DNA of 37,755 nucleotides from an uncultured Bacteroidales bacterium (GTDB lineage: Bacteria > Bacteroidota > Bacteroidia > Bacteroidales > Paludibacteraceae). Positions 1-37,755 of the stretch are shown piece by piece (the first letter of the stretch is position 1; each line of letters opens with the position of its first letter). The position numbers and the translations under genes are program-made. The stretch spans positions 1 to 37,755 of the forward strand of contig ONHW01000022.1 of NCBI GenBank assembly GCA_900317745.1. Direction: 5' to 3'. The notes beneath the pieces were generated by a model, which searched no databases, was not told the origin of the DNA, and saw only the letters and a list, made by a program, of their open reading frames with translations.

Positions 1-752
1 AATTTCTGTTTGCGGACAATGTTAAGCATAAACTTGCAAGCGAAACATCCGGTAGCAAACGCTGCCACGAACCCCACCAGCAGGGGCATCAGCCCAAGAG
101 TGCTTGTCAGTTCTCCCTTCAACAGGTCGAGCAAATCAAGGAATGCCTCGCCCAATATAGGCACAAGAACCATCAGGAACGAGAACTGCGCGACACTCTC
201 CTTTCTCACGCCACAAAGCAAACCTGTTGCTATTGTTGTACCACTTCTGCTCAATCCAGGCAGCACAGCGCATGCCTGTGCCAGACCAATGACAAACGCA
301 TCGCGGTAGGTCACCTCATGTCCTTCACGACCTTTCTGCGCCAAACGTTTGCTCAGCCACTCACTCAGATACAGCAAACATGCTGTAACAAGCAAACAAA
401 TACCTACGAGCAACAGGCCGTTGCCAAAGAAGGCCTCGACCTCGTCCTTAAAGAACATTCCGACTATGAATACAGGAATCATTGACACAAGAATCTTTGC
501 CACATAATCCTTTTCCTGATTCCATTCAATTGTACAGAACGTACCTCTGAGTAACTGCACTATCTCACGCCAGAGAATGACTATTGTCGCCAATACAGTA
601 GCCGTGTGTACGACTATAGCGAATGTAAGATTTTCCTCACTTGCCGTGCCGAATAATGCCTGACCTATCTCAAGATGCCCGGAACTGGATACGGGTAAGA
701 ACTCTGTCAACCCTTGTATAATACCTAAGACTAATGCCTCCCACCAACTCAT
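1..752 (-). CDS. uppP: undecaprenyl-diphosphatase UppP (BacA), 3' end cut by window
   Basis: Membrane phosphatase that converts undecaprenyl diphosphate to the monophosphate, recycling the lipid carrier for peptidoglycan and surface glycans. Reading leftward from the ATG at 752, the product begins [20 protein letters not shown] and shows both family signatures: [14 protein letters not shown] near residue 15 and [13 protein letters not shown] near residue 170, separated by several hydrophobic helices. About 250 codons are visible; family members are about 260-280 residues, so only the C-terminal tail should be missing. It lies 42 bp downstream of the DUF3098 gene and is probably co-transcribed with ftsX. 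The identification is firm. Confidence 0.93.
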
Positions 753-2962: not shown

Positions 2963-4537
2963 TTACTTTAATATAAGCGCCAAGTTACCTTGGTACAGCG
3001 TTTCGGCGCCGCCTTTCGTGCGATACTTGATGTTTTGAACAAGAATCATATCGCCACTCTTGAGTTGTCCGATGAGTTTGAGCTGTGCAGCAGAGAACTT
3101 GTTTCCGGTAGATTTACCGGTCTTACGCAGAATATAGGTGTCGAAACTTGTGATTTCGAAAGGCACTTCGAGCAATCCGTCTTCGCCGTAGCCAATCTCC
3201 AGCACAGTATTCTTATTCAAGCTCTTACGCGGCGTACTGCTTGAGTTAACCTGCTTGCCGTTATCGACAAAGTACGGCATAGGTTGCGGCAGGCGCTGAA
3301 CCTTGAATACTTTCTCGCCCATGGTAGCCATACGTCCGTTCATATCAGCCAACACAGTAACTTTAACAGTCTTGGCATCAGCCTTCGGGCGCAGAATGTA
3401 GAACTTGCCACTGCGCTTAACATCAGCACCTACAACGTTAACTTTCAGTTGGTTATCGGTCATACCCGGAGCGGATACGACATAGCGGTTGTCGAAGTCA
3501 CGGTAGATGATATTCAGGTCCTCGTTCATGACAGAGGCAGAAGGCTCACCTACAACGAACGAAGACTCAAACGGCATGCTAACGGTATCACGGCCTTGTT
3601 TGTAGCGAACGATACCGGAGTAGCGCTGCTCGCCTGAGCCACTGGCTGTGCAACGATAGATACCATCTTCACCCAGTTCCACTCCATTAACGAAGTAATC
3701 CGGCTTAGCGGTTGAGTCAACGGCAGCAAGGATAATCTGTGCCTCATACTGGTCGCCACGGATTACGTACGAAGATTTAGGAATCACGTACGCACGTATA
3801 TCATTAGCCTTGAAGTCGTTGGCATCAATTCGCTGATACAGACGGGTCAGAGTACGATTCTCGTAAGCACGGATATCGTTCTGATACTTGGTAAGAATCG
3901 CCATACAAGCGCCTGCAGGCATACCTTCAAACACCGATGCTTCCCATGCAATTGAGTCGCCATCGTTGTTCACGCCCTTGCCGGTATTAAAGATTCCGTT
4001 CAGGATCTGCGCAGGCTTGCCGTTACGTGCACGCGAACTCCAGTGCTGAATGTCCATAAGCGTTGCCTTGTAGGCATCAATCTTCTCGCGCAGGACCTCA
4101 CCATTATGCTTGGTAGGATCATTCTTGTCGAATTCGACCATGGCATACTGGCCCGGTTTGTCGAAGTCAGACTTGTTGATGATAGTGCGTGCAGTTGAGT
4201 CATACTTCTCGCCGTCCACCAACTTAGCAACGTTTACCTTGAAATCCTGAATATAGTTATACAATTCGTCAGATACCTTTCGCAGCGAGTCCGCCTGAAT
4301 GTACAGCTGTCCAACCTTTTGAGGGTTTTCGGCATAAGCACGTTCGAAACGGCGGTACTGCATGGCATTTTGCTCGTCGGTGTTATCCAGCGTGATATGC
4401 AAGCTGTTGTCCACCTTCTCGAAGGCATCAAGCACGTTCGTACTTACGTTCAACGCCAACATGGCGGTAAGCACGAGGTACATCATACCAATCATTTTTT
4501 GTCTCGGGGTTTCCGGACAGTTGGTTGCTCCACTCAT
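2963..4537 (-). CDS. gldM: type IX secretion motor/shaft protein GldM/PorM
   Basis: Inner-membrane-anchored periplasmic shaft of the T9SS; with GldL it forms the proton-driven motor that contacts the GldKN ring. The 524-residue product has the expected single N-terminal TM helix (QKMIGMMYLVLTAMLALNVS, about residues 13-32), an initial SGATNCPETPRQKM, then a long periplasmic region of helical and Ig-like domains. Length is typical (about 515-530). It is separated from gldL by 176 bp, wider than the other gaps in this operon; no promoter matching the local consensus was seen there. No truncation is visible. Confidence 0.95.
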   Translation of the reverse strand: MSGATNCPETPRQKMIGMMYLVLTAMLALNVSTNVLDAFEKVDNSLHITLDNTDEQNAMQYRRFERAYAENPQKVGQLYIQADSLRKVSDELYNYIQDFKVNVAKLVDGEKYDSTARTIINKSDFDKPGQYAMVEFDKNDPTKHNGEVLREKIDAYKATLMDIQHWSSRARNGKPAQILNGIFNTGKGVNNDGDSIAWEASVFEGMPAGACMAILTKYQNDIRAYENRTLTRLYQRIDANDFKANDIRAYVIPKSSYVIRGDQYEAQIILAAVDSTAKPDYFVNGVELGEDGIYRCTASGSGEQRYSGIVRYKQGRDTVSMPFESSFVVGEPSASVMNEDLNIIYRDFDNRYVVSAPGMTDNQLKVNVVGADVKRSGKFYILRPKADAKTVKVTVLADMNGRMATMGEKVFKVQRLPQPMPYFVDNGKQVNSSSTPRKSLNKNTVLEIGYGEDGLLEVPFEITSFDTYILRKTGKSTGNKFSAAQLKLIGQLKSGDMILVQNIKYRTKGGAETLYQGNLALILK

Positions 4538-25572: not shown

Positions 25573-25636
25573 CAGGCGCAAAGTTTTGCAGTTCGCAGGA
25601 AGAGTAATTCAATCATGCAAATTGAACAACAGAGTC

Positions 25637-27982
25637 ATGGCTATAGAACAACTTTCCACATTATCCGAGGAGGATATCAAGTTCCAGTTTATCACTCCCG
25701 CAATTGAGCATGCCGGATGGCAAAAGGAGCAGATTCGCATGGAATACTGCTTTACCGACGGCCGTATCATCTCAGTCGGCAGCGAGTATGAGCGTGCGTC
25801 GAAAAAGAAAGCCGACTATCTGCTGCGTATCAATGCGGATAATCCCATAGCGGTGGTCGAAGCCAAGGCTGCCACCAAAGACCTTACCACCGGTTTGCAG
25901 CAAGCTATCGGTTACGCTGAAGCTTTGGATGTGCCGTTTGCGTTTGCATCGAACGGTTTGGCATTTCGCATCCACGACATGATCACCGGAATGGAGAATG
26001 ACTTCCCGATGGATGAGTTCCCATCTTGCGAGATGCTTAAGTGCCGATGGATTCTGGAGAAACGCATGAGCAAGCAGCAGGAGGAAGCACTGGATATTCC
26101 CTATCACTACAGCAAGAACACCCACGAACCGCGCTACTACCAGCGTATAGCCATCAACCGCACGTTGGACGCCGTAGCACGTGGCGACAAACGTCTGTTG
26201 CTCGTCATGGCTACCGGTACGGGTAAGACATTCACTGCCTTCCAGATCATCTGGCGCCTGCGCGAATTAGGCAAAGCGCATCACATCCTCTATCTCGCCG
26301 ACCGTAACATCCTGATTGACCAGACAATGGCGCAGGACTTCAAACCGTTCCAGAAGATTATGACCAAGGTCAAAGGCAAGGAGCTTGACTCGTCCTACGA
26401 ACTGCACATGGCGCTCTATCAGCAACTCGTCACTTACGAGGATAACAAGGAGCAGCCGTATCTGCAGTTCGACCCTAACTTCTTCGACCTGATCATCATC
26501 GACGAGTGCCACCGCGGTAGTGCGAAAGAGAACTCCGCATGGCGTAAGGTGCTCGAATATTTCAGCAGTGCTACGCAGATTGGTCTGACCGCTACGCCCA
26601 AACGCAAGGAGGATGCCGATAACTTCGACTATTTCAACGAACCGATATACACCTATAGCCTCAAGCAGGGAATAGAAGACGGCTTCCTTGCGCCGTATCG
26701 CGTATCGCGTGTGCATCTGAATGTGGATGTCAACGGCTATATAGTCAAGTTAGGCGAGACCGATACGAATGGCGACGCAGTGCCGGTGCGCGTGTATCAG
26801 CGCAGCGATTTCGGGAAGAAGATTGCTATCAACCGCCGCCAAGTGGCAGTAGCAATGGAGATACAGGAGAAACTCGAAAAGATGGGCAAATATACCAAGA
26901 CCATCGTATTCTGTCCGGATCAGGAGGAAGCAGCCAAGATGCGTGATTTGCTCGTGGCGCTCAACCCGAAAGAGATGGGCAAGAGTCCGAACTATATCAT
27001 GCGCATCACCAGCGAGGACAAGGACGGCAAGAAGATGCTAGACCGCTTCATCGATCCCGAATCCAAGTATCCGACTATCGTCACCACTTCCGAACTCCTC
27101 TCCACCGGCGTGGACTGCAAGACCTGCGGACTCATCGTTATCGACAAGGAGGTCAACTCCATGACGCTGTTCAAGCAGATGATCGGTCGCGGTACGCGAA
27201 TCTATATCGACAAAGAGCGGAAGATCAACAAGTGGCACTTCGAGATTCTTGATTTCCGTGATGCTACACGCCTCTTCTTTGATCCTGAGTTTGACGGCGA
27301 ACCGGAACTGAATACCGACAAGTCACGCCGCACATCCAAGGACGGCGACAGCAAACCTGCCAAAGGCACGAAGATTGAGATTGCCGGTGAGGAGATTGAC
27401 GAAGAGAAGTTCTCAAAAATTCACATCGAAGGTAGCAAGCGCGTAGCCAAACTCAACGAGATATACTACGTCATCAGCGATGACGGGCAAGCGCTGGAGA
27501 TTTCCGATTTCCTTGATTATACGCGCAAAGGTATTCTCCGTCGGTTCCCGAAGTTTACGGATTTTGCAAGGCTGTGGACGGACACCGACCGCAAGACGCA
27601 GATCATCGAAGACTTCAAGGATCACGACATATTGATAGAAGAGGTTCGCCGCAGTAATCCGAACCTCGCCAATGCCGATGTGTTCGACATCATCTGTCAC
27701 GTGGCGTACGACATGAAACCGCTCACCCGCGAGGAGCGCGCAAACAACGTGAAGAAGCGCAACTATTTCGGCAAGTACGGCGACCAAGCGCGGCAAGTGT
27801 TGGAAGCCTTGCTTGACAAATATGCCGAACTCGGTGTGCGCAGTCTGGAAGATAGGAATATCCTCAGTCTCGAACCGTTCGCGCATTTCGGCACGCCGGT
27901 GAAGATCACCAAACTGTTTGGCGGCACACAAGGCTACCAAGCCGCTATTCAAGAACTCGAACAACAATTATACTCCGCATAA
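25637..27982 (+). CDS. hsdR: type I restriction enzyme R subunit HsdR (EcoEI-like)
   Basis: ATP-driven translocase and nuclease subunit. The ATG at 25637 (MAIEQLSTLSEEDIKFQFI) gives 781 residues. The N-terminal nuclease site is Asp60...Glu75-x-Lys77 (VVEAK). Helicase motifs follow: Walker A ATGTGKT at about 192-198, DECH at 289-292, motif III GLTATP at about 316, motif VI region MIGRGTRIY near 515. The C-terminus corresponds to the EcoEI R C-terminal domain. It is first in an operon of five tightly spaced genes: hsdM starts 3 bp after its stop. Confidence 0.96.
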   Translation: MAIEQLSTLSEEDIKFQFITPAIEHAGWQKEQIRMEYCFTDGRIISVGSEYERASKKKADYLLRINADNPIAVVEAKAATKDLTTGLQQAIGYAEALDVPFAFASNGLAFRIHDMITGMENDFPMDEFPSCEMLKCRWILEKRMSKQQEEALDIPYHYSKNTHEPRYYQRIAINRTLDAVARGDKRLLLVMATGTGKTFTAFQIIWRLRELGKAHHILYLADRNILIDQTMAQDFKPFQKIMTKVKGKELDSSYELHMALYQQLVTYEDNKEQPYLQFDPNFFDLIIIDECHRGSAKENSAWRKVLEYFSSATQIGLTATPKRKEDADNFDYFNEPIYTYSLKQGIEDGFLAPYRVSRVHLNVDVNGYIVKLGETDTNGDAVPVRVYQRSDFGKKIAINRRQVAVAMEIQEKLEKMGKYTKTIVFCPDQEEAAKMRDLLVALNPKEMGKSPNYIMRITSEDKDGKKMLDRFIDPESKYPTIVTTSELLSTGVDCKTCGLIVIDKEVNSMTLFKQMIGRGTRIYIDKERKINKWHFEILDFRDATRLFFDPEFDGEPELNTDKSRRTSKDGDSKPAKGTKIEIAGEEIDEEKFSKIHIEGSKRVAKLNEIYYVISDDGQALEISDFLDYTRKGILRRFPKFTDFARLWTDTDRKTQIIEDFKDHDILIEEVRRSNPNLANADVFDIICHVAYDMKPLTREERANNVKKRNYFGKYGDQARQVLEALLDKYAELGVRSLEDRNILSLEPFAHFGTPVKITKLFGGTQGYQAAIQELEQQLYSA

Positions 27983-27985
27983 TCT

Positions 27986-29509
27986 ATGGCAGTAAATAAT
28001 CTGGTTAAGCGATTGCAGAATGTGATGCGTCAGGATGCCGGTATATCCGGCGATGCACAGCGTATCGAACAAATGACATGGACGTTCTTCCTCAAGGTCT
28101 ATGACGCACAGGAAGACGAATGGGACTTCAAGAGCAACGGCACGTTTCACTCTATCATTCCCGAACCTATGCGTTGGCGCAACTGGGCAACGGACAAGAA
28201 AGACGGCTCGGCGCTGACAGGCGACGAACTGTTGAACTTTGTCAACAACGAACTGTTCCCCACGCTGCAAAAACTGCCTTTGGTGCCTGATTCGCCGCGT
28301 GCACACTGGATTGTCAAGGAGGTTTTTGCCGACCTCAACCAGTATATGAAGAACGGCGTACTGCTCCGGCAGGTCATCAATATCGTCGATGAGATTGATT
28401 TCACCGATGCCGACGACCGGCACACCTTTGGCGATATCTACGAGGGCATACTCAAGGATCTGCAGTCTGCCGGCAATGCCGGTGAGTTCTATACGCCGCG
28501 TGCGCTGACCGACTTTATCATCCAAACGCTCAATCCGCAATTAGGCGAATCAGTGGCGGACTTCACGTCCGGTACAGGCGGATTCCTTACCTCCGCGCTC
28601 AATTATCTGGCAGCGCAACGTAGGACGCCGCAGGATGAAGAACTATGGCAGCATGCTGTGCACGGTCAGGAGTGGAAACCGCTGCCGTACTTGCTCAGTA
28701 TAACCAACCTGCTGGTGCACGGAGTCGATGAGCCCGACATCCTGCACTGCGATTCGCTCGGCACACCTGTCTCTTCGTTCCGCGACAAGGACCGCGTCAA
28801 CGTTATCGCCATGAATCCGCCATACGGCGGCAGCACCGAGGCGTCGGTCAAGATGAATTTCCCCACGGATATGCGTTCGTCGGAAACGGCTGACCTGTTC
28901 ATGGTACTTATCATGCGCCGGCTGAAGATGGACGGCCGTGCCGGAGTCATCATCCCCGACGGCTTCCTGTTCGGTACCGATGGTGCCAAACTGGCTATCA
29001 AGACGGCACTCTTGCGTGAGTTCAACCTGCACACGATCATTCGTCTGCCGGGATCAATCTTCGCGCCATATACGAGCATCAACACCAATATCGTCTTCTT
29101 CAACAACGAAACCGCAGAAGGTGCCGAAGAAGGCTTCCGCACCAAGGATGTCTGGTTCTATCGTCTCGACATGCCCGAGGGATACAAACATTTCTCCAAA
29201 ACCAAACCCATGCGTCTGGAGCATTGCCGGCCTGTCAGCGAATGGTGGAACAACCGCACGGAACTCATCACAACTGACGACGAAGGCAACATAACCGACG
29301 AGAAAGCACGCCGTTTCACAGCGCAGCAACTCATCGACCTCTCCTGCAATTTCGACCAGTGCAAGTTCCCCAAATCCGAAGAGGAAGTCCTCCCGCCTGC
29401 CGAACTGCTCGCCGACTACCACAAGCGCCGCGAAGCCCTCGACGCGCAGATAGACAAAACACTTGCACAGATACAAAATAAGTTGGGGTTGGACTTAACT
29501 CATAAATAG
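27986..29509 (+). CDS. hsdM: type I DNA methyltransferase subunit HsdM
   Basis: N6-adenine methyltransferase that, with HsdS, methylates and recognises the target. The 507-residue product has the N-terminal helical HsdM domain, motif I DFTSGTGGF (about 192-200) and the catalytic NPPYGG (277-282), plus GEFYTPRALTDFI near 167. No disruption is seen. It lies 3 bp after hsdR and 8 bp before the DUF1016 gene. Confidence 0.96.
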   Translation: MAVNNLVKRLQNVMRQDAGISGDAQRIEQMTWTFFLKVYDAQEDEWDFKSNGTFHSIIPEPMRWRNWATDKKDGSALTGDELLNFVNNELFPTLQKLPLVPDSPRAHWIVKEVFADLNQYMKNGVLLRQVINIVDEIDFTDADDRHTFGDIYEGILKDLQSAGNAGEFYTPRALTDFIIQTLNPQLGESVADFTSGTGGFLTSALNYLAAQRRTPQDEELWQHAVHGQEWKPLPYLLSITNLLVHGVDEPDILHCDSLGTPVSSFRDKDRVNVIAMNPPYGGSTEASVKMNFPTDMRSSETADLFMVLIMRRLKMDGRAGVIIPDGFLFGTDGAKLAIKTALLREFNLHTIIRLPGSIFAPYTSINTNIVFFNNETAEGAEEGFRTKDVWFYRLDMPEGYKHFSKTKPMRLEHCRPVSEWWNNRTELITTDDEGNITDEKARRFTAQQLIDLSCNFDQCKFPKSEEEVLPPAELLADYHKRREALDAQIDKTLAQIQNKLGLDLTHK

Positions 29510-29517
29510 AATAACCT

Positions 29518-30606
29518 ATGAATTGTGATATAGAAATAGTTGCTACTACCGAAGACGCATTATTCAAACAGGTATCCACCTTAATAGAAGAAAGTAGAAA
29601 ACATGTAGCCAAAGCGGTTAATACCGCTATGGTTTATACGTATTATGGCGTAGGGCAATATATAGTGGATTACGAACAAGGAGGCAACTATCGGGCTGCA
29701 TATGGAAAAGGAGTTTTGGCTCGTTTATCAGCCAAACTGACCAATAAGTACGGCAGAGGTTGGTCTGTAGAGACATTAACCAAATGCAGAAAGTTCTACA
29801 ACATCTATGCAATTTCGTCTGCACCGCAGACGGAATCGACAGGTAAGGCAAATTCGTCTGACGGGCAGACGAAATCCGTTCCGGAGTTTACACTATCATG
29901 GAATCATTACCAGATACTGATGCGCATAGAAAATCCCGAAGAAAGACACTTTTACGAGATAGAAGCGCAACGGCAAAACTGGGGATACAAGTGGCTACAG
30001 CGGCAACATGCCAGTAGTTTATATGAACGGATTGCTTTAAGCCAGGACAAAGATAGTGTCCTCCGTCTTGCAGAACAAGGTCAGGTAGTAGAGAAGCCTG
30101 CTGATATCATCAAAAACCCTATTTCTTTGGAGTTCCTCGGACTAAAACCGGATAGTTCCTATAGCGAAAGCGCATTGGAAACAGCAATCATTAGCAAACT
30201 GCAAACATTCCTATTGGAAATGGGAAAAGGTTTTCTGTTTGAAGCAAGGCAAAAGAGGTTCACTTTCAACGAAGATAATTTCTTTGTTGATTTGGTTCTA
30301 TATAATCGAATACTTCAATGCTATGTGCTGGTAGATTTGAAGATAGATAAACTGACGCACCAAGATTTAGGTCAGATGCAGATGTACGTGAACTACTTTG
30401 ACCGGTATGTAAAACTTGATTTTGAAAAGCCGACCATAGGTATATTGCTCTGCAAAGCAAAAGAAGATGCATTGGTAGAACTCACTCTTCCTAAAGAGGC
30501 AAATATCTATGCCTCAGCATATCAACTTTGCTTACCAGACAAAGCATTGCTTCAGGCTAAGGTAAAAGAATGGATTGATGAATTTGAAGATGAGCACGAA
30601 CTATGA
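29518..30606 (+). CDS. DUF1016 (YhcG-like) PDDEXK nuclease-domain protein
   Basis: A 362-residue protein with an N-terminal DUF1016_N domain (about 15-98; YTYYGVGQYIVDYEQ, LARLSAKLTNKYGRGWS) and a C-terminal PDDEXK domain (about 180-350) with Asp258 in FVDLVLYN and Asp273-Leu-Lys275 as nuclease residues. Such proteins often accompany type I restriction operons; their exact job is not settled. The linker (about 98-121) is polar and contains two palindromic DNA elements. The gene is visibly AT-richer than hsdR/hsdM and overlaps hsdS by 4 bp (ATGA). Confidence 0.88.
   Translation: MNCDIEIVATTEDALFKQVSTLIEESRKHVAKAVNTAMVYTYYGVGQYIVDYEQGGNYRAAYGKGVLARLSAKLTNKYGRGWSVETLTKCRKFYNIYAISSAPQTESTGKANSSDGQTKSVPEFTLSWNHYQILMRIENPEERHFYEIEAQRQNWGYKWLQRQHASSLYERIALSQDKDSVLRLAEQGQVVEKPADIIKNPISLEFLGLKPDSSYSESALETAIISKLQTFLLEMGKGFLFEARQKRFTFNEDNFFVDLVLYNRILQCYVLVDLKIDKLTHQDLGQMQMYVNYFDRYVKLDFEKPTIGILLCKAKEDALVELTLPKEANIYASAYQLCLPDKALLQAKVKEWIDEFEDEHEL
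29812..29875 (+). repeat. two related palindromes inside the DUF1016 linker
   Basis: First: ATTTCGTCTGC (29812-29822) pairs with GCAGACGGAAT (29826-29836) around a 3-nt loop. Second: TTCGTCTG (29853-29860) pairs with CAGACGAA (29866-29873) around a 5-nt loop. Both share the TTCGTCTG...CAGACG arms and are read in frame as polar residues. Confidence 0.75.
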
Positions 30607-32054
30607 CCGCAGAACAACTACGTAATAGCATCCTCCAAGAAGCCATCTCCGGCCGCCTCGTTCCGCAAAACCCCAACGACGAACCGGCAAGTGTATTGTT
30701 GGAAAGAATCGTGGCTGAGCAAAATAAGACGCTTCCTCCTAAAAAGAAGAAGTCTGTTTCTCTCATTGCAGAACCAGAAGATATTACTCCTGTTAGTGGA
30801 TGGGCATATTTTTATATCAAAGATTTATTTGACACCACCTCTGGCGGTACGCCGATAAAAGGGCATCCTGAATATTATGATGGTGATATTCCTTGGGTGC
30901 GTAGCGGAGAACTTAATTCTCTATATTTATATGATTCTGAACTGCGCATCACAGAGGCAGGATTGAAGAATTCATCCGCTAAATATTTTCCTGTTGATAC
31001 AGTTGTAATTGCTATGTATGGAGCAACTATCGGAAAGACTTCTATCTTCAAACGCTCCATGACTACTAATCAGGCTATATGTGGAATATTTCCGATTGAT
31101 GGTATCTTGCCCGAGTATATCTACTATTTTTTGCAGAATAAGAAACGGGATTACTGCTCTATTGCTTTTGGTAGCGGGCAACCTAATATTTCACAAGAGA
31201 AGATAAAGAATACTATTTTCCCTCTTCCCCCTCTCGCCGAGCAGAAGCGTATTGTAGCTAAGTTAGAGGAGTTGCTGCCTATTGTGGAGCAATACGGCAA
31301 AGCCCAAAAGGAACTCGACGAACTCAACGCCGCTCTTCCTGCCCGCTTGCGCCAATCCATCCTCCAAGAAGCCATCTCCGGTCACCTCGTTCCGCAAGAC
31401 CCCAACGACGAACCGGCATCTGCTCTTCTCCAGCGTATCCGCGAGGAGAAAGCACGGCGTGTAAAAGAGGGAAAACTTAAAAAGAAAGACCTCGTTGAAA
31501 CTCCAATAACGGATGATGAGAAACCTTTTGAGATACCGAGTAGTTGGATTTGGGTAAGGTATCAGGATATTGCTGATTGTGCTTTAGGGAAAACCAAAAA
31601 TCCGAATCAAACAGATGGCGAGTTATGCCCTTATTTGTGTTCCATCAATGTGTACTGGGATAGCGTACGTTTGAATGTGTTAAAAGAAATGCTCTTTTCT
31701 GATACGGATAAACAAAAGTATTATGTAGAAAAGGGTAATATGCTGATATGCGAAGGTGGCGAGGCTGGAAGAACTGCTATATATGAGGGTAACATTAGTC
31801 CGCTATACTATCAAAATGCACTACACAGAGTTCGTTTCTACGGAGATATTTGTGCGAGGTTTTATTTATATCAAATGGAACTGTATAAAAAAACAGGATT
31901 ACTTACAGAACATATAAAAGGCGAGACTATACAACACTTTGTTTCGGCAAAACTGTTGAATCTCGCCATCCCTCTTCCTCCTCTCGCCGAGCAGCAACGC
32001 ATCGTCGCTAAAATTGAAGAGTTATTAGCAGATATTAACAAGATAAGCAAATGA
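30603..32054 (+). CDS. hsdS: type I restriction specificity subunit HsdS
   Basis: Determines the bipartite DNA target of the HsdRMS complex. The 483-residue product has two target-recognition domains (about 55-200 and 300-450), each followed by a conserved helical spacer ending LPPLAEQKRIVAKLEELLPI or LPPLAEQQRIVAKIEELLAD. Each half begins with a near-identical SILQEAISG(R/H)LVPQ(N/D)PNDEPAS block. TRDs are AT-rich relative to the repeats. It overlaps the DUF1016 gene by 4 bp upstream and the next gene by 4 bp (ATGA). Confidence 0.95.
   Translation: MTAEQLRNSILQEAISGRLVPQNPNDEPASVLLERIVAEQNKTLPPKKKKSVSLIAEPEDITPVSGWAYFYIKDLFDTTSGGTPIKGHPEYYDGDIPWVRSGELNSLYLYDSELRITEAGLKNSSAKYFPVDTVVIAMYGATIGKTSIFKRSMTTNQAICGIFPIDGILPEYIYYFLQNKKRDYCSIAFGSGQPNISQEKIKNTIFPLPPLAEQKRIVAKLEELLPIVEQYGKAQKELDELNAALPARLRQSILQEAISGHLVPQDPNDEPASALLQRIREEKARRVKEGKLKKKDLVETPITDDEKPFEIPSSWIWVRYQDIADCALGKTKNPNQTDGELCPYLCSINVYWDSVRLNVLKEMLFSDTDKQKYYVEKGNMLICEGGEAGRTAIYEGNISPLYYQNALHRVRFYGDICARFYLYQMELYKKTGLLTEHIKGETIQHFVSAKLLNLAIPLPPLAEQQRIVAKIEELLADINKISK
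30629..31418 (+). repeat. 61-bp direct repeats within hsdS
   Basis: 30629-30689 and 31358-31418 are identical at 58 of 61 positions and code for the same conserved block before each target-recognition domain. A second similar pair lies at about 31227-31275 and 31976-32024. Confidence 0.85.
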
Positions 32055-34130: not shown

Positions 34131-34553
34131 ATGAGAAAGTCTATTTCTCCCGCCAAGGTGGCAAAATCTGCCAACCAGGCAAAAAACGCCTCTCGCGAGG
34201 CAAAAAACACGTTCCTCTGTGTTGACCTCAAGTTCGAAGGCAACAAGACAGTCATCCGACCCAAGCAGACGCGCCAAGGTAGTCTCACATGTATCGACGC
34301 CGACCGCTTCCATTTCGCGGAGCGAAACGTGCCGAGCGTGCCACACCCGCATCTGCACTGGAGGTTGCTCGACCGCACGTTACACGGACGAGCAAGCGTC
34401 AACGCACTGCATGTTAAAGTCGAGTTCTACATCCATCATGACGAGTATCTCAATTCCCGCGACCTCGCGGACATACTCGCATCGGAGATGGAGACCATCG
34501 GCGAGAACCTCTCTGACATCAACCTCGAGGAGGAGGTAGCCAAATGTTACTGA
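34131..34553 (+). CDS. unrecognised 140-residue island protein
   Basis: Start at ATG 34131 (MRKSISPAKVAKSANQAKNA); the first 25 residues are a basic Ala/Lys/Ser-rich tail, then a compact region (FLCVDLKFEGNKTVIRPKQT, a His-rich HPHLHW, VKVEFYIHHDEYL) that could be a small alpha/beta domain. The TTTCGC/GCGAAA palindrome at 34313-34327 lies in frame (residues HFAER). Function unknown; not similar to anything I know. It overlaps the next gene by 10 bp, so both belong to the primase operon. Confidence 0.6.
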   Translation: MRKSISPAKVAKSANQAKNASREAKNTFLCVDLKFEGNKTVIRPKQTRQGSLTCIDADRFHFAERNVPSVPHPHLHWRLLDRTLHGRASVNALHVKVEFYIHHDEYLNSRDLADILASEMETIGENLSDINLEEEVAKCY

Positions 34554-34924
34554 TCGGAATCCGTAAGGGCGGCGCGAAGTGTAGTAGCGCCTGCCCGTTC
34601 TACACCGAGACAGGTGTAGTCAAAGGCGTCAGAGGTGTGCCTCTGACCACACACTGCCGGGCAACGATGCACCCGTGGATGGTCGATTGCGACATCTACA
34701 ATCCTTACCACATCGACAAACTCGAGGTCTCTGAAGAGCAGTGGAAGCAGATGCAGCACGCCGTGCACCGACGAGCCAAACGACAGCAGAAACTTTACCC
34801 CGAAATCAACGACAACGGGCGATCTGTCGGATCAACGTGGACAGAGGACCGCTGGAACGCGCAGAAGAGTGCAACTGCCAAACAAATCACGAATTATCGG
34901 CAAAAAAAAGAAATTGAAAAGTGA
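34544..34924 (+). CDS. unrecognised 126-residue cysteine-containing island protein
   Basis: A 126-residue protein starting MLLIGIRKGGAKCSSACPFY. Cysteines at 13, 17, 38 and 49 (CSSAC, HCRAT, DCDIY) could bind a metal; this is inference. The C-terminal half is basic and polar (HRRAKRQQKLYPEIN, TWTEDRWNAQKSA). It overlaps the upstream gene by 10 bp, and its TGA overlaps the GTG start of the primase gene (GTGA), a sign of coupled translation. Confidence 0.6.
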   Translation: MLLIGIRKGGAKCSSACPFYTETGVVKGVRGVPLTTHCRATMHPWMVDCDIYNPYHIDKLEVSEEQWKQMQHAVHRRAKRQQKLYPEINDNGRSVGSTWTEDRWNAQKSATAKQITNYRQKKEIEK

Positions 34925-37296
34925 AAGGAAAAATGAAAATGAAGACAAGAATCTGTTACCAAGACGGAGTGAGCAAGGGACAACCGTTGCCACTGACGAA
35001 AGAGAAATGGGACGAGTTGATCGATAGTCCCGAAGTGAAGAACATCTGCCAGCGTATAGCAGAGCTGGATGTGGATGCGGCAGACTATAACGACAGGAAA
35101 CAGGCGCTGAAGAAGCGTTTGCCGGTCATCATACCGCATGCCTCGGCTTTTGCTAACGGCAAACGCATCTCCGCCGATGCCACACCTTCAGGCCTCGCCA
35201 TGCTCGACGTCGACCACGTACCCAATCCAAGAGAGTGGTGGGAAAAAATCAAAAATAGCCCGAAGGGCGATCAATCTGACATCATAGATGCCAACCACAT
35301 CTATCTTGTCGCTATCACCGCTTCCGGTCAAGGCATCCGCATCATCGGCGAACGCTTGTCTAACAGTCCGCAGGACGGTCTAACAGCGGAGCGGTCTGTC
35401 AGTGATAACGGTCTGTCAGGCGCAGCCGGTCTCGAAAGCATCGAAGCCGCACAACTCCGCATAGCCACCGCTCTGGGCATAACTGAGTACGATGCTGTCA
35501 CCAAGGATCTTGCACGCGCCTCGTACATCGTCCCGCGCGATTATATCCTGTATATCGATGAGTTCGGCTTACTTTCTTCGCCCGTCACGCCACAGCCGCC
35601 TCATGCAGCAAGTCTGGCAGCCGAAGGCGGTCTCTCTTCTGTCAGCGTCAGCGGTCTGTCAGCCGAAGGCGGTCCGACCTACCGCGGCATCCCTTACAGC
35701 GATATCATCGCACAACTCATGATTGCCACGGGGAACGGCGGCGGAGCGGTACAGGGAGAGCGGAACACGGTGTATTTCGGTTTGGCGAACTACATGCGGT
35801 ACATCTGCGACTTCAACGCCGATCTGCTGCTGCGTGTCATTCCCGATTTCGGTCTTCCCGAACACGAACGACGACAGGCTATCGCCTCTGCCCTCGGACG
35901 ACCGCGTAAGTCCGATATACCGCTCATACTCCAGTCGGCCATCGCTGTCTGTGAACGTGAGTGTTCTGTGCTCGGCGCTTCCAACGCCGAGAGAGCTATC
36001 GATCTCCAGCTGCCCGAACTGCCACGACTGCTACGCATCCTCTGCCGAAGGCTGCCGGAGGATTATCGTCCCGCTATGGTCATCGCAGCGCTGCCCGTGC
36101 TCGGTGCTCTCGCAACACGTGTACGCTTCGAGTATCTCGACCGGCAGATCCAGTCGCTGTCGTTCTTCTCATGTATCACCGCACCCGCCGCTTCCGGCAA
36201 GTCGTTCATACGCAAACCCGTTGACCTACTGCTCACACCTATCAACGAACAGGATGCCATTGAGCGAGAGAAGGAGCAGGCGTACAAGGACAAACTACGT
36301 GCTTCCAAGAACAGCAAGAACCAGCCCGAGGATCCACATGCCTGTCCGAGAAACAACGGTGTCAGCATCTCCGTAGCCAAACTGCTCCAACTCTTAACCT
36401 ACGCCGAGGGCAAGCACCTCATCGGCATCGGCGAGGAGATGGATACGCTCGTCAAGTCCGAACGTGCAGGCGTATGGTCGCAGAAGTCCGACATCTACCG
36501 TCTCGCTTTCGACAATGCCGAGTACGGACAGGCATACATGTCCGATGCTTCGTTCAATGCACATATACCTGTTTTCTACAATCTCCTCCTCACCGGCACA
36601 CCCAACTCCATGCGACGGTTCTTCCGGGATCTCGAGAACGGTCTCGCTACACGTGTCTGTTTCGCACAACTGCCCGACACCTCGTTCACCGATATACCCG
36701 TCTTTGCGCCGTACACCGCTGCCGAACAGGCGGAGATCATCCGCTGGGCACGCCAACTCGATGCCATCGGCAAAACTCCGTCCGTTTCGTCCGAATTCAA
36801 TTCGGACAACAGGGGCATAGTGCGTATCTCATGCCCACAGGTGGGAAACGCCATCTCTGGTTGGCTCGAACGCAAACGCCAGCAGGCCATCGATGCCGAC
36901 TCGCATGCGATGGATACGTTGCGCCGTCGTGCTGCGGTGATAGGATTTCGCGCAGGGATGTTGTGCTACCTGCTGGAGAACAGCAAATGGACGAAGGTGG
37001 TAGGCGAGTTTGCGGAGTGGGTGGCGGAGTACGTGTTCAGGAACCAGATGGAGCTGTGGGGCGATCAGATGGAGCAGTTGCTGACGGGTGCTCTGGATGC
37101 ACAGACGGAGCGCGGAGCTGCCACTTCGCTGCTGGCACTGCTGCCGGAGGAGTTCAGTACGGGCGACCTGATCAAGTTGCGGGCGCGGAAAGGACAATCC
37201 GTCACATCAACTTCCATCAAATCGCTTATTAGTCGTTGGAAGAGCCATCAACGAATTGAGAAGATCGGTGATGCTCGCTGGAAACGCCTTAAGTAA
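34921..37296 (+). CDS. VirE_N / DUF3987 primase-helicase-like protein
   Basis: A 791-residue protein with a BT4734-like VirE N-terminal domain (about 45-215; AMLDVDHVPNPREWWEKI, ITASGQGIRII) and a DUF3987 P-loop domain (about 290-720) with Walker A-like APAASGKS at about 421-428. This pair is typical of Bacteroidales mobile elements and is thought to be a replication primase-helicase. The GTG at 34921 overlaps the previous stop; ATGs at 34933 and 34939 are alternatives. Three in-frame repeat insertions interrupt it: about residues 146-166, 230-251 and 347-357. Later genes of the element, if any, lie outside the window. Confidence 0.88.
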   Translation: MKGKMKMKTRICYQDGVSKGQPLPLTKEKWDELIDSPEVKNICQRIAELDVDAADYNDRKQALKKRLPVIIPHASAFANGKRISADATPSGLAMLDVDHVPNPREWWEKIKNSPKGDQSDIIDANHIYLVAITASGQGIRIIGERLSNSPQDGLTAERSVSDNGLSGAAGLESIEAAQLRIATALGITEYDAVTKDLARASYIVPRDYILYIDEFGLLSSPVTPQPPHAASLAAEGGLSSVSVSGLSAEGGPTYRGIPYSDIIAQLMIATGNGGGAVQGERNTVYFGLANYMRYICDFNADLLLRVIPDFGLPEHERRQAIASALGRPRKSDIPLILQSAIAVCERECSVLGASNAERAIDLQLPELPRLLRILCRRLPEDYRPAMVIAALPVLGALATRVRFEYLDRQIQSLSFFSCITAPAASGKSFIRKPVDLLLTPINEQDAIEREKEQAYKDKLRASKNSKNQPEDPHACPRNNGVSISVAKLLQLLTYAEGKHLIGIGEEMDTLVKSERAGVWSQKSDIYRLAFDNAEYGQAYMSDASFNAHIPVFYNLLLTGTPNSMRRFFRDLENGLATRVCFAQLPDTSFTDIPVFAPYTAAEQAEIIRWARQLDAIGKTPSVSSEFNSDNRGIVRISCPQVGNAISGWLERKRQQAIDADSHAMDTLRRRAAVIGFRAGMLCYLLENSKWTKVVGEFAEWVAEYVFRNQMELWGDQMEQLLTGALDAQTERGAATSLLALLPEEFSTGDLIKLRARKGQSVTSTSIKSLISRWKSHQRIEKIGDARWKRLK
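35358..35419 (+). repeat. in-frame GGTCT(GT/AA)CAG repeats in the primase gene
   Basis: GTCTAACAG at 35358 and 35378, GGTCTGTCAG at 35393 and 35410. They encode a Gly/Ser-rich linker (SNSPQDGLTAERSVSDNGLS) between conserved segments. Confidence 0.75.
35612..35674 (+). repeat. in-frame 42-bp period repeat in the primase gene
   Basis: The 21-bp copies 35612-35632 and 35654-35674 differ at one base (core CAGCCGAAGGCGGTC) and encode LAAEGGL and LSAEGGP. The GGTCTGTCAG word of the preceding cluster recurs here. Confidence 0.8.
35960..35991 (+). repeat. in-frame copy of the right-edge REP-like element
   Basis: Begins AGTGTTCTGTGCTCGG and folds as CTCGGCG/CGCCGAG (35971-35977 with 35985-35991) around loop CTTCCAA. 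It matches the element at 37639-37669 at 28 of 31 positions and encodes ECSVLGASNAE. Confidence 0.85.
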
Positions 37297-37431
37297 GGTC
37301 GCAAGGTTGCATGGTTGCAAGGTTGCACATCTGTGTGGGTTGAAATTTTCCACATTATATATTATATATAATATATAATGAGCATTTTCACCGACATATT
37401 CGGTTGCGCAACTTTGCAACTTTGCAACTTT
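37295..37431. repeat. iteron-like 8-bp repeats flanking a 28-bp AT palindrome
   Basis: Left: four tandem 8-mers AAGGTCGC, AAGGTTGC, ATGGTTGC, AAGGTTGC (37295-37326). Centre: a perfect 28-bp palindrome (37353-37380), all A/T except the outer C and G. Right: three GCAACTTT units (37408-37431), i.e. AAAGTTGC in inverted orientation. The left array begins at the primase stop codon. The layout resembles a replication origin or protein-binding cis site. Confidence 0.7.
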
Positions 37432-37755
37432 TTACCCCGTTTTACCCCATGCTTTTTCTTGGGGTCCCCGCCGTAACCGCAGGTTGCGGTGGGGAGAGCG
37501 GAGGCAGGCGTCGCCTTTATGGCGCAAAGCGCCATCTGATGCGACCGCCTTGCCGAACGCGTAGTGTCCTGTGCTCGGCATCTGCGATGTCGAGTCCCAT
37601 CATCTATGTCCTGTGCTCGGCGCTGTCCCGCCGCCCCAGTGTTCTGTGCTTGGGGCTTCCAACCCCGAGTTGGTAGCGCAGCGGTGTTCAGTTCCCGGCG
37701 GTATTCCGCCGCCCCGGTGTTCTGTGCTCGGGTCTTTTAGCCCCGAGTTAGGTAG
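37297..37755. other. 459-bp non-coding region after the primase gene
   Basis: No convincing gene. After the iteron-like block it contains a nested hairpin (37509-37549: TGGCGC/GCGCCA inside GGCG-TCGC/GCGA-CCGCC) and the REP-like array to the window edge. Confidence 0.7.
37563..37755 (+). repeat. array of five REP-like hairpin elements
   Basis: Units beginning TGT(C/T)C at 37565, 37607, 37640, 37685 and 37718 (spacing 42, 33, 45, 33). Four of five continue CTGTGCT(C/T)GG; each has its own stem, e.g. CTCGGCATC/GATGTCGAG, CTTGGGG/CCCCGAG, CGGCGG/CCGCCG, CTCGGG/CCCGAG. Units 2-3 (37607-37676) and 4-5 (37685-37755) form a duplicated composite of about 70 bp ending GGTAG. The array continues to the window edge. 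Confidence 0.85.

Follow-up and report, generated by a model that had tools for sequence, protein, structure and literature searches.

The locus

The window analysed here, a stretch of 37,755 nucleotides from an uncultured bacterium of the Paludibacteraceae (Bacteroidales), carries at 25586-32054 what looks to be an operon for type I restriction-modification, in which the M and S genes are separated by a gene for a DUF1016-like nuclease. Towards its end lies a primase gene with a small hairpin element inside its reading frame, and an array containing further copies of that element follows the gene (Table 1). BT4734-like proteins are counted among the archaeo-eukaryotic primases, and DUF3987 is described as a predicted helicase of mobile elements (PMC5862659). 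The primase gene probably belongs to a mobile element's replication module.

Table 1. Features of the primase locus (window positions unless marked as residues of the host protein)
Feature	Position	Strand	Description
Host primase gene	34921..37296	+	791 aa; Pfam BT4734-like_N and DUF3987
Hypervariable linkers 0 to 4	residues about 104-124, 144-171, 217-253, 346-363, 615-637		Five linkers of the host protein
Family C units	35357..35431	+	Linker 1, filled; GTCTNNCAG plus mini-hairpin
Family C units	35612..35674	+	Linker 2
Family A element	35960..35991	+	Linker 3; 32 nt; peptide CSVLGASNAE; 11-nt head AGTGTTCTGTG, 7-bp stem, 7-nt loop
Family A stem, 5' arm	35971..35977	+	CTCGGCG
Family A stem, 3' arm	35985..35991	+	CGCCGAG
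Family B hairpin	36780..36807	+	Linker 4; GTCCGTTTCGTCCGAATTCAATTCGGAC
Downstream array	37563..37755	+	Copies of family A mixed with another type of hairpin, GGTGTTCAGTTCCCGGCGGTATTCCGCCG; partly 78-nt period

Some match to the primase gene at E≤0.001, distant DUF3987 proteins included, is present in 81 of the 178 genomes of the genus, while viral contigs gave no relative of it. The relatives that bear the gene are assemblies of Bacteroidales or Paludibacteraceae, many of them ruminant by title. Homologues spanning the site of the element were compared in 63 cases, and 59 of these entered the alignment. In an alignment of ten sequences that share 65-78% overall identity with the window protein, conserved residues disappear at five places, which are the hypervariable linkers of Table 1. 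In an AlphaFold2 model of the host protein (mean pLDDT 59.1, pTM 0.34) the N-terminal part is well modelled apart from linkers 1 and 2, which come out as stretches of low confidence within it. The DUF3987 part is for the most part poorly modelled, so the model says little on linkers 3 and 4.

A dispersed element with a covarying stem

The original prediction was of a REP-like hairpin lying in frame in the primase gene, and the 31-mer GTGTTCTGTGCTCGGCGCTTCCAACGCCGAG (35961-35991) is indeed read within the uninterrupted frame of that gene. With up to three mismatches allowed, it occurs three times in the window; the expectation from 100 shuffles is 0.00. As had also been predicted, the same element makes up part of the array downstream, which runs beyond the end of the window to 37901 of contig C23 and is followed by one more copy at 38493. 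The in-gene copy differs from the one at 37639-37669 at three positions: a C/T difference that turns a T-G pair into C-G, and a compensatory G/C swap on opposite arms of the stem, again as first described. Bordering the array, at about 37457-37562 of the window, is an intergenic repeat of about 100 nt which, by eye, also appears to be in frame in linkers 1 and 2 of one homologue (L050).

A degenerate pattern of this repeat family (family A), with up to three mismatches, matches 12 places in the genome from which the window comes, and its reversed control matches none. We then used 26 family A copies from this source genome (2.6 Mb) to build a covariance model, R1, which finds 45 places there at E<1e-3, rising to 58 when the limit is relaxed to E≤1; some of the copies are arrayed with 42-nt or 78-nt periods. 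Absence of the element from the rest of the genome had been named in advance as evidence against the prediction, and the search returned the opposite. In the alignment of the 26 copies, 86.8% of the stem cells are paired, and the covariation score of the stem is 0.448 versus a shuffle mean of 0.217, with none of 500 shuffles reaching 0.448 and slid partners scoring at most 0.156. Two of the five covariation measures, namely the pairs with a double change and the number of pair types, are not above the shuffles. The family A stem keeps its pairing while its sequence changes, as the single pair of copies had indicated. Openness in all six frames as a design feature of the element was considered and set aside, the signal being weak (7 of 26 copies open, versus 14% of shuffles).

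Across the genus, 54 of the 178 genomes have R1 matches at E≤1e-4, with fewer copies per genome in the relatives than in the source genome. In a sample of 295 genomes from the order, searched at E≤1e-5 with stricter filters, the source genome alone was matched; the listing of that sample held one other genome of the same genus, which had no R1 match. The Rfam collection, run against 34500-37755, gave a single match at 19.5 bits versus a gathering score of 153, so no Rfam family fits this region. At the foot of family A, TGTG is found in 24 of the 26 copies, and GTAG, GTGG or CGTC in none (0/26).

Could the element be a chance similarity or an artefact of assembly? The relatives examined are nearly all metagenome assemblies, which speaks for an artefact. 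Against either explanation stand the expected number of places (0.00), the empty control, the covariation of the stem, and the fact that similar in-gene repeats occur in homologues from many separate assemblies. We reject both.

Gain and turnover of repeats in the linkers

Linker 1 is 35 aa long in the window and 12 aa in 30 of 53 homologues; the 12-aa form is also that of nine of the ten distant homologues (45-53% identity) which span this linker. Linker 4 measures 39 aa in the window and 23 aa in 47 of 57 homologues. Linkers 1 and 4 are clean in-frame gains over a short site, with the window gene filled at both: family C units at linker 1 and a family B hairpin at linker 4. Linker 3 is different. 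It is 27 aa long in the window and 26-34 aa across the 59 homologues, with no shorter site known, and since its length falls in the normal range, family A either occupies this linker or has replaced earlier content. The predicted insertion of a repeat is therefore borne out at linkers 1 and 4, but not at linker 3, for which it was made. The residues of linker 3 are not conserved among homologues; their conservation in homologues without the element had been proposed as a finding that would tell against the prediction.

The repeats in the linkers are of several kinds. Outside the linkers, the family B pattern occurs at nine places in the source genome, each with three mismatches, and the family C pattern at three, with no control matches for either; linkers 1 and 2 of the window also match further stretches of this genome. 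In linker 3, the homologue L030 carries family A with the same hairpin as the window, while L031, L037, L039, L040, L041 and L059 carry an A-like unit with another hairpin (R1 scores of 16-20 bits). Elsewhere the same linker holds CAAAT-type repeats, CTCCC/GGGAG palindromes, a GGGTTA repeat (L043), family E hairpins or plain sequence. At linker 4 the outer flanks (AIG...LVHIS) are kept, and the middle is either a family B hairpin or an A-like and E pair. Evidently, the five linkers of this primase family host several repeat families, and the element in the window is no isolated event.

This pattern is also seen when the linkers are taken as a whole. When linker segments of 40 nt or more are searched for matches in DNA beyond the gene itself, 57 of 161 have one at E≤1e-3 (11 of 48 for linker 3 alone), versus none of 483 length-matched core controls; at E≤0.01 the figures are 68/161 and 5/483. 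Windows with a strong hairpin, defined as at least 4 kcal/mol below their own shuffles, make up 6-17% of the five linkers versus 1.2% of the rest of the gene in 48 homologues. Such a concentration at the linkers is what would be expected if the hairpins were kept for a function within the gene, for instance slowing of the ribosome between domains or a DNA signal of the mobile element. We regard this as very improbable, given that many homologues are empty at a given linker, as the counts of short sites at linkers 1 and 4 attest, and that some linkers consist of non-palindromic repeats or plain sequence.

On a tree of the core sequences of 57 genes, the class of linker-3 content, assigned by eye, changes at least 18 times, versus a mean of 28.7 and a minimum of 24 for shuffled labels; the smaller number of changes in the real tree shows that there is some inheritance too. 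The sister of the window gene, L067 (support 0.83), has a different repeat in linker 3, and the remaining family A genes sit on the tree amid genes whose linker 3 is filled otherwise, for which reason the two family A occupants look independent. The protein core of L043 is nearly the same as those of L037, L039, L040 and L041, yet its linker 3 differs from theirs.

These observations bear on a rival explanation, in which linker cassettes are exchanged between gene copies by recombination (gene conversion or template switching), with new transposition of REPs being rare. It accounts for the tight cluster of genes around L043, whose pairwise core DNA identity is 91.5-94% while linkers 0, 2 and 3 are strongly different in several pairs, for the preserved flanks of linker 4 around a swapped middle, and for the constant length of linker 3. 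It does not by itself account for the plain gains of sequence at linkers 1 and 4. We consider it a serious alternative, albeit one that we lean against, and return to it with the reading phases.

Association of family A with one RAYT subfamily

Protein queries found in the source genome at least four genes resembling REP-associated tyrosine transposases (RAYTs); the Pfam model PF01797 found a single one, below its cut-off. One of these lies on contig C33 with a family A array to its 5' side, and its open frame extends back through the array; the true start of the gene may lie further downstream. The same RAYT gene also has a five-unit tandem repeat (KLWEEGNNDR-like, L019:5850-5990) between its HUH and Y motifs. 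In another RAYT gene, on contig C13, the palindrome ATCAGCCAAATTTGGCTGAT is found both within the gene and just downstream (L125:3439-3464 and 4189-4208), and is perhaps that RAYT's own REP.

Relatives of the C33-type RAYT at E≤1e-40 are present in 62 of the 178 genomes of the genus. Among the matches listed, 9 of 30 C33-type loci have family A (R1 at E≤0.1), the source genome included, and 21 have no family A match; of the nine, L205 is weak and some have copies on both sides. The listed loci contain 36 R1 matches in 115 kb, about 24 of them at 31 bits or more, while a near-equal threshold gives 226 matches across all 178 genomes (1.2-2.9 Mb each). By coordinates, the same neighbourhood of RAYT and family A is found on contig 3 of G041 and contig 341 of G025. 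R1 and a C33-type RAYT co-occur in 26 of the 178 genomes (Fisher p=0.017), and 28 of the 54 R1-positive genomes have no C33-type match at E≤1e-40. Around RAYT genes of other types no family A was found, the 10 sources examined representing only 6 distinct loci (33 kb without overlaps).

Family A also occurs inside RAYT genes, between the HUH and Y motifs and with the frame kept, in L177, L178, L179, L180, L196 and L197. The motifs DH[LV]H and YIxDNP are present in the eight loci with such an open reading frame, and the REP_Tyr_transpos model NF047646 scores the RAYTs at 38.1 and 29.7 bits, below the NCBIfam cut-off of 80. Because family A lies both beside and in frame inside one RAYT subfamily, we read it as a RAYT-associated REP with an unusual head.

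The explanation that we favour, and consider fairly probable, is that the element in the primase gene is a family A REP copy dispersed by a RAYT-like HUH transposase, with the primase linkers acting as sinks for repeats. The transposase, presumably the C33-type RAYT, would act on single-stranded DNA, recognising the hairpin together with the conserved head, and would then copy or move the unit, leaving the stem free to change so long as pairing holds. Most copies lie outside recognisable genes, and those landing in protein linkers would survive if the frame stayed open and the peptide was tolerable. In-gene copies would thus persist only as tolerated linker, and the five linkers of the primase would be places where small repeats, REPs among them, are gained and lost.

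Reading phase of the in-frame copies

Family A is in frame in other genes as well. A weakly HTH-like gene (L019:2793-3803; Pfam below cut-off) contains six in-frame copies at C33:46158-46399, where the array forms a 14-aa repeat between the HTH and C-terminal parts. A second DUF3987 gene, on contig C29, has a family A copy (L106:473-504, E 7.8e-4) read as VSCARDFDERVF, in a frame that differs from that of the window gene.

In the primase linkers, the family A matches examined agree in phase in 10 of 10 sense cases, and in another phase in 6 of 6 antisense cases, one of which (L066) is weak. Family B hairpins are in a single phase in 25 of 25 cases and family E in 6 of 6, while family C is found in two phases (11 and 5 of 16 short-pattern matches). 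In RAYT genes, antisense family A copies share the phase of the antisense copies of the primase (10/10), and sense copies have a phase different from that of its sense copies (3/3). Judged by eye from the tree, there were about four sense and about three antisense family A events in the primase. A simple hydropathy score fails to explain the agreement, the frames used not being the most hydrophilic ones.

The agreement for A, B and E is more than we expected from tolerance alone, and could be caused either by selection on the peptide or by copying from linker to linker. Exchange of cassettes between gene copies would preserve both phase and linker length, so the agreement speaks for it. Against this, the counts are not independent: they are inflated by shared descent, and of the ten sense matches six are weak (16-20 bits) and almost identical to one another. 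Moreover, family C is in two phases, and family A is in frame in the RAYT and HTH-like genes too. A broader version, which we find doubtful, holds that the linkers of primases and RAYTs are in-frame cassette sites where unrelated repeats are exchanged at a high rate and mostly in a fixed phase, so that REPs would travel between genomes in a mobile gene and pass by copying from one linker into another, as coding sequence, with the protein core conserved.

Comparison with known systems

Like a REP, family A is a palindrome of 20-40 bp with many copies and a paired stem, and it flanks a RAYT; the tetranucleotide foot by which REPs are classified (GTAG/GTGG or CGTC) was looked for and is absent, and family A is therefore left out of the published classes. 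It nevertheless appears to work like a REP mobilised by a RAYT.

The closest published parallel is RAYT subclass 2.4, which PMC6006769 describes as abundant in Bacteroidetes and Cyanobacteria, with REPs inside RAYT genes and the motifs NH[IFV]H and YIxNNP. Both have a small hairpin next to a Y1/HUH gene, with copies dispersed through the genome, and a REP between HUH and Y with the frame kept. Family A differs in having no GT[AG]G foot in 26 copies and a longer head, TGTYCTGTG; its RAYTs carry the motifs given above instead of the published ones; and here an unrelated family of primase genes has several repeat families in its linkers. The same paper ascribes 'atypical secondary structures' to subclass 2.6 TnpAREP of Bacteroidetes (motifs NH[LIV]H and YIH[QN]NP), which resembles our case in its phylum and in a RAYT flanked by unusual hairpins with genome copies elsewhere; the two are set apart here by the motifs (DH[LV]H and YIxDNP in our loci).

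The original prediction likened the element to the Rickettsia palindromic elements. This holds insofar as both are palindromic repeats within protein genes, in frame in our case; RAYT-associated REPs, including those inside RAYT genes (PMC6006769), are the better comparison. According to PMC3733652, RPE-4 and RPE-6 of Rickettsia are CGTC REPs, CGTC REPs are also reported for Bacteroidetes, and in various species REPs are carried by many genes with roles in DNA replication and repair. Unlike RPE-4 and RPE-6, family A has no CGTC foot and belongs to another phylum, and one gene family has several repeat families in the same linkers. The further claim that no such family had been described for Bacteroidales survives only narrowly, in view of those CGTC REPs in Bacteroidetes. 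The open-licence literature that we searched gave nothing direct tying DUF3987 to repeats, or REPs and RPEs to Bacteroidales, and no case of a gene family whose linkers are shared by several families of repeats. On the whole, what was first observed at this site is confirmed and the interpretation placed on it is partly supported.

REPs within genes are already known from RPE-4/6 and subclass 2.4. What is striking here is that several repeat families are common to the linkers of one gene, three of them keeping to one reading phase and a fourth not.

REPs are named as extragenic elements, and little is understood of the way in which RAYTs spread them. With two linkers that exist in short and filled forms, and a third whose content is inferred to have changed at least 18 times, the primase family offers natural junctions of a kind that intergenic REPs seldom give. 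It shows how small mobile repeats can turn into protein linkers. If the fixed phase reflects copying from gene to gene, it would be a new route by which REPs spread.
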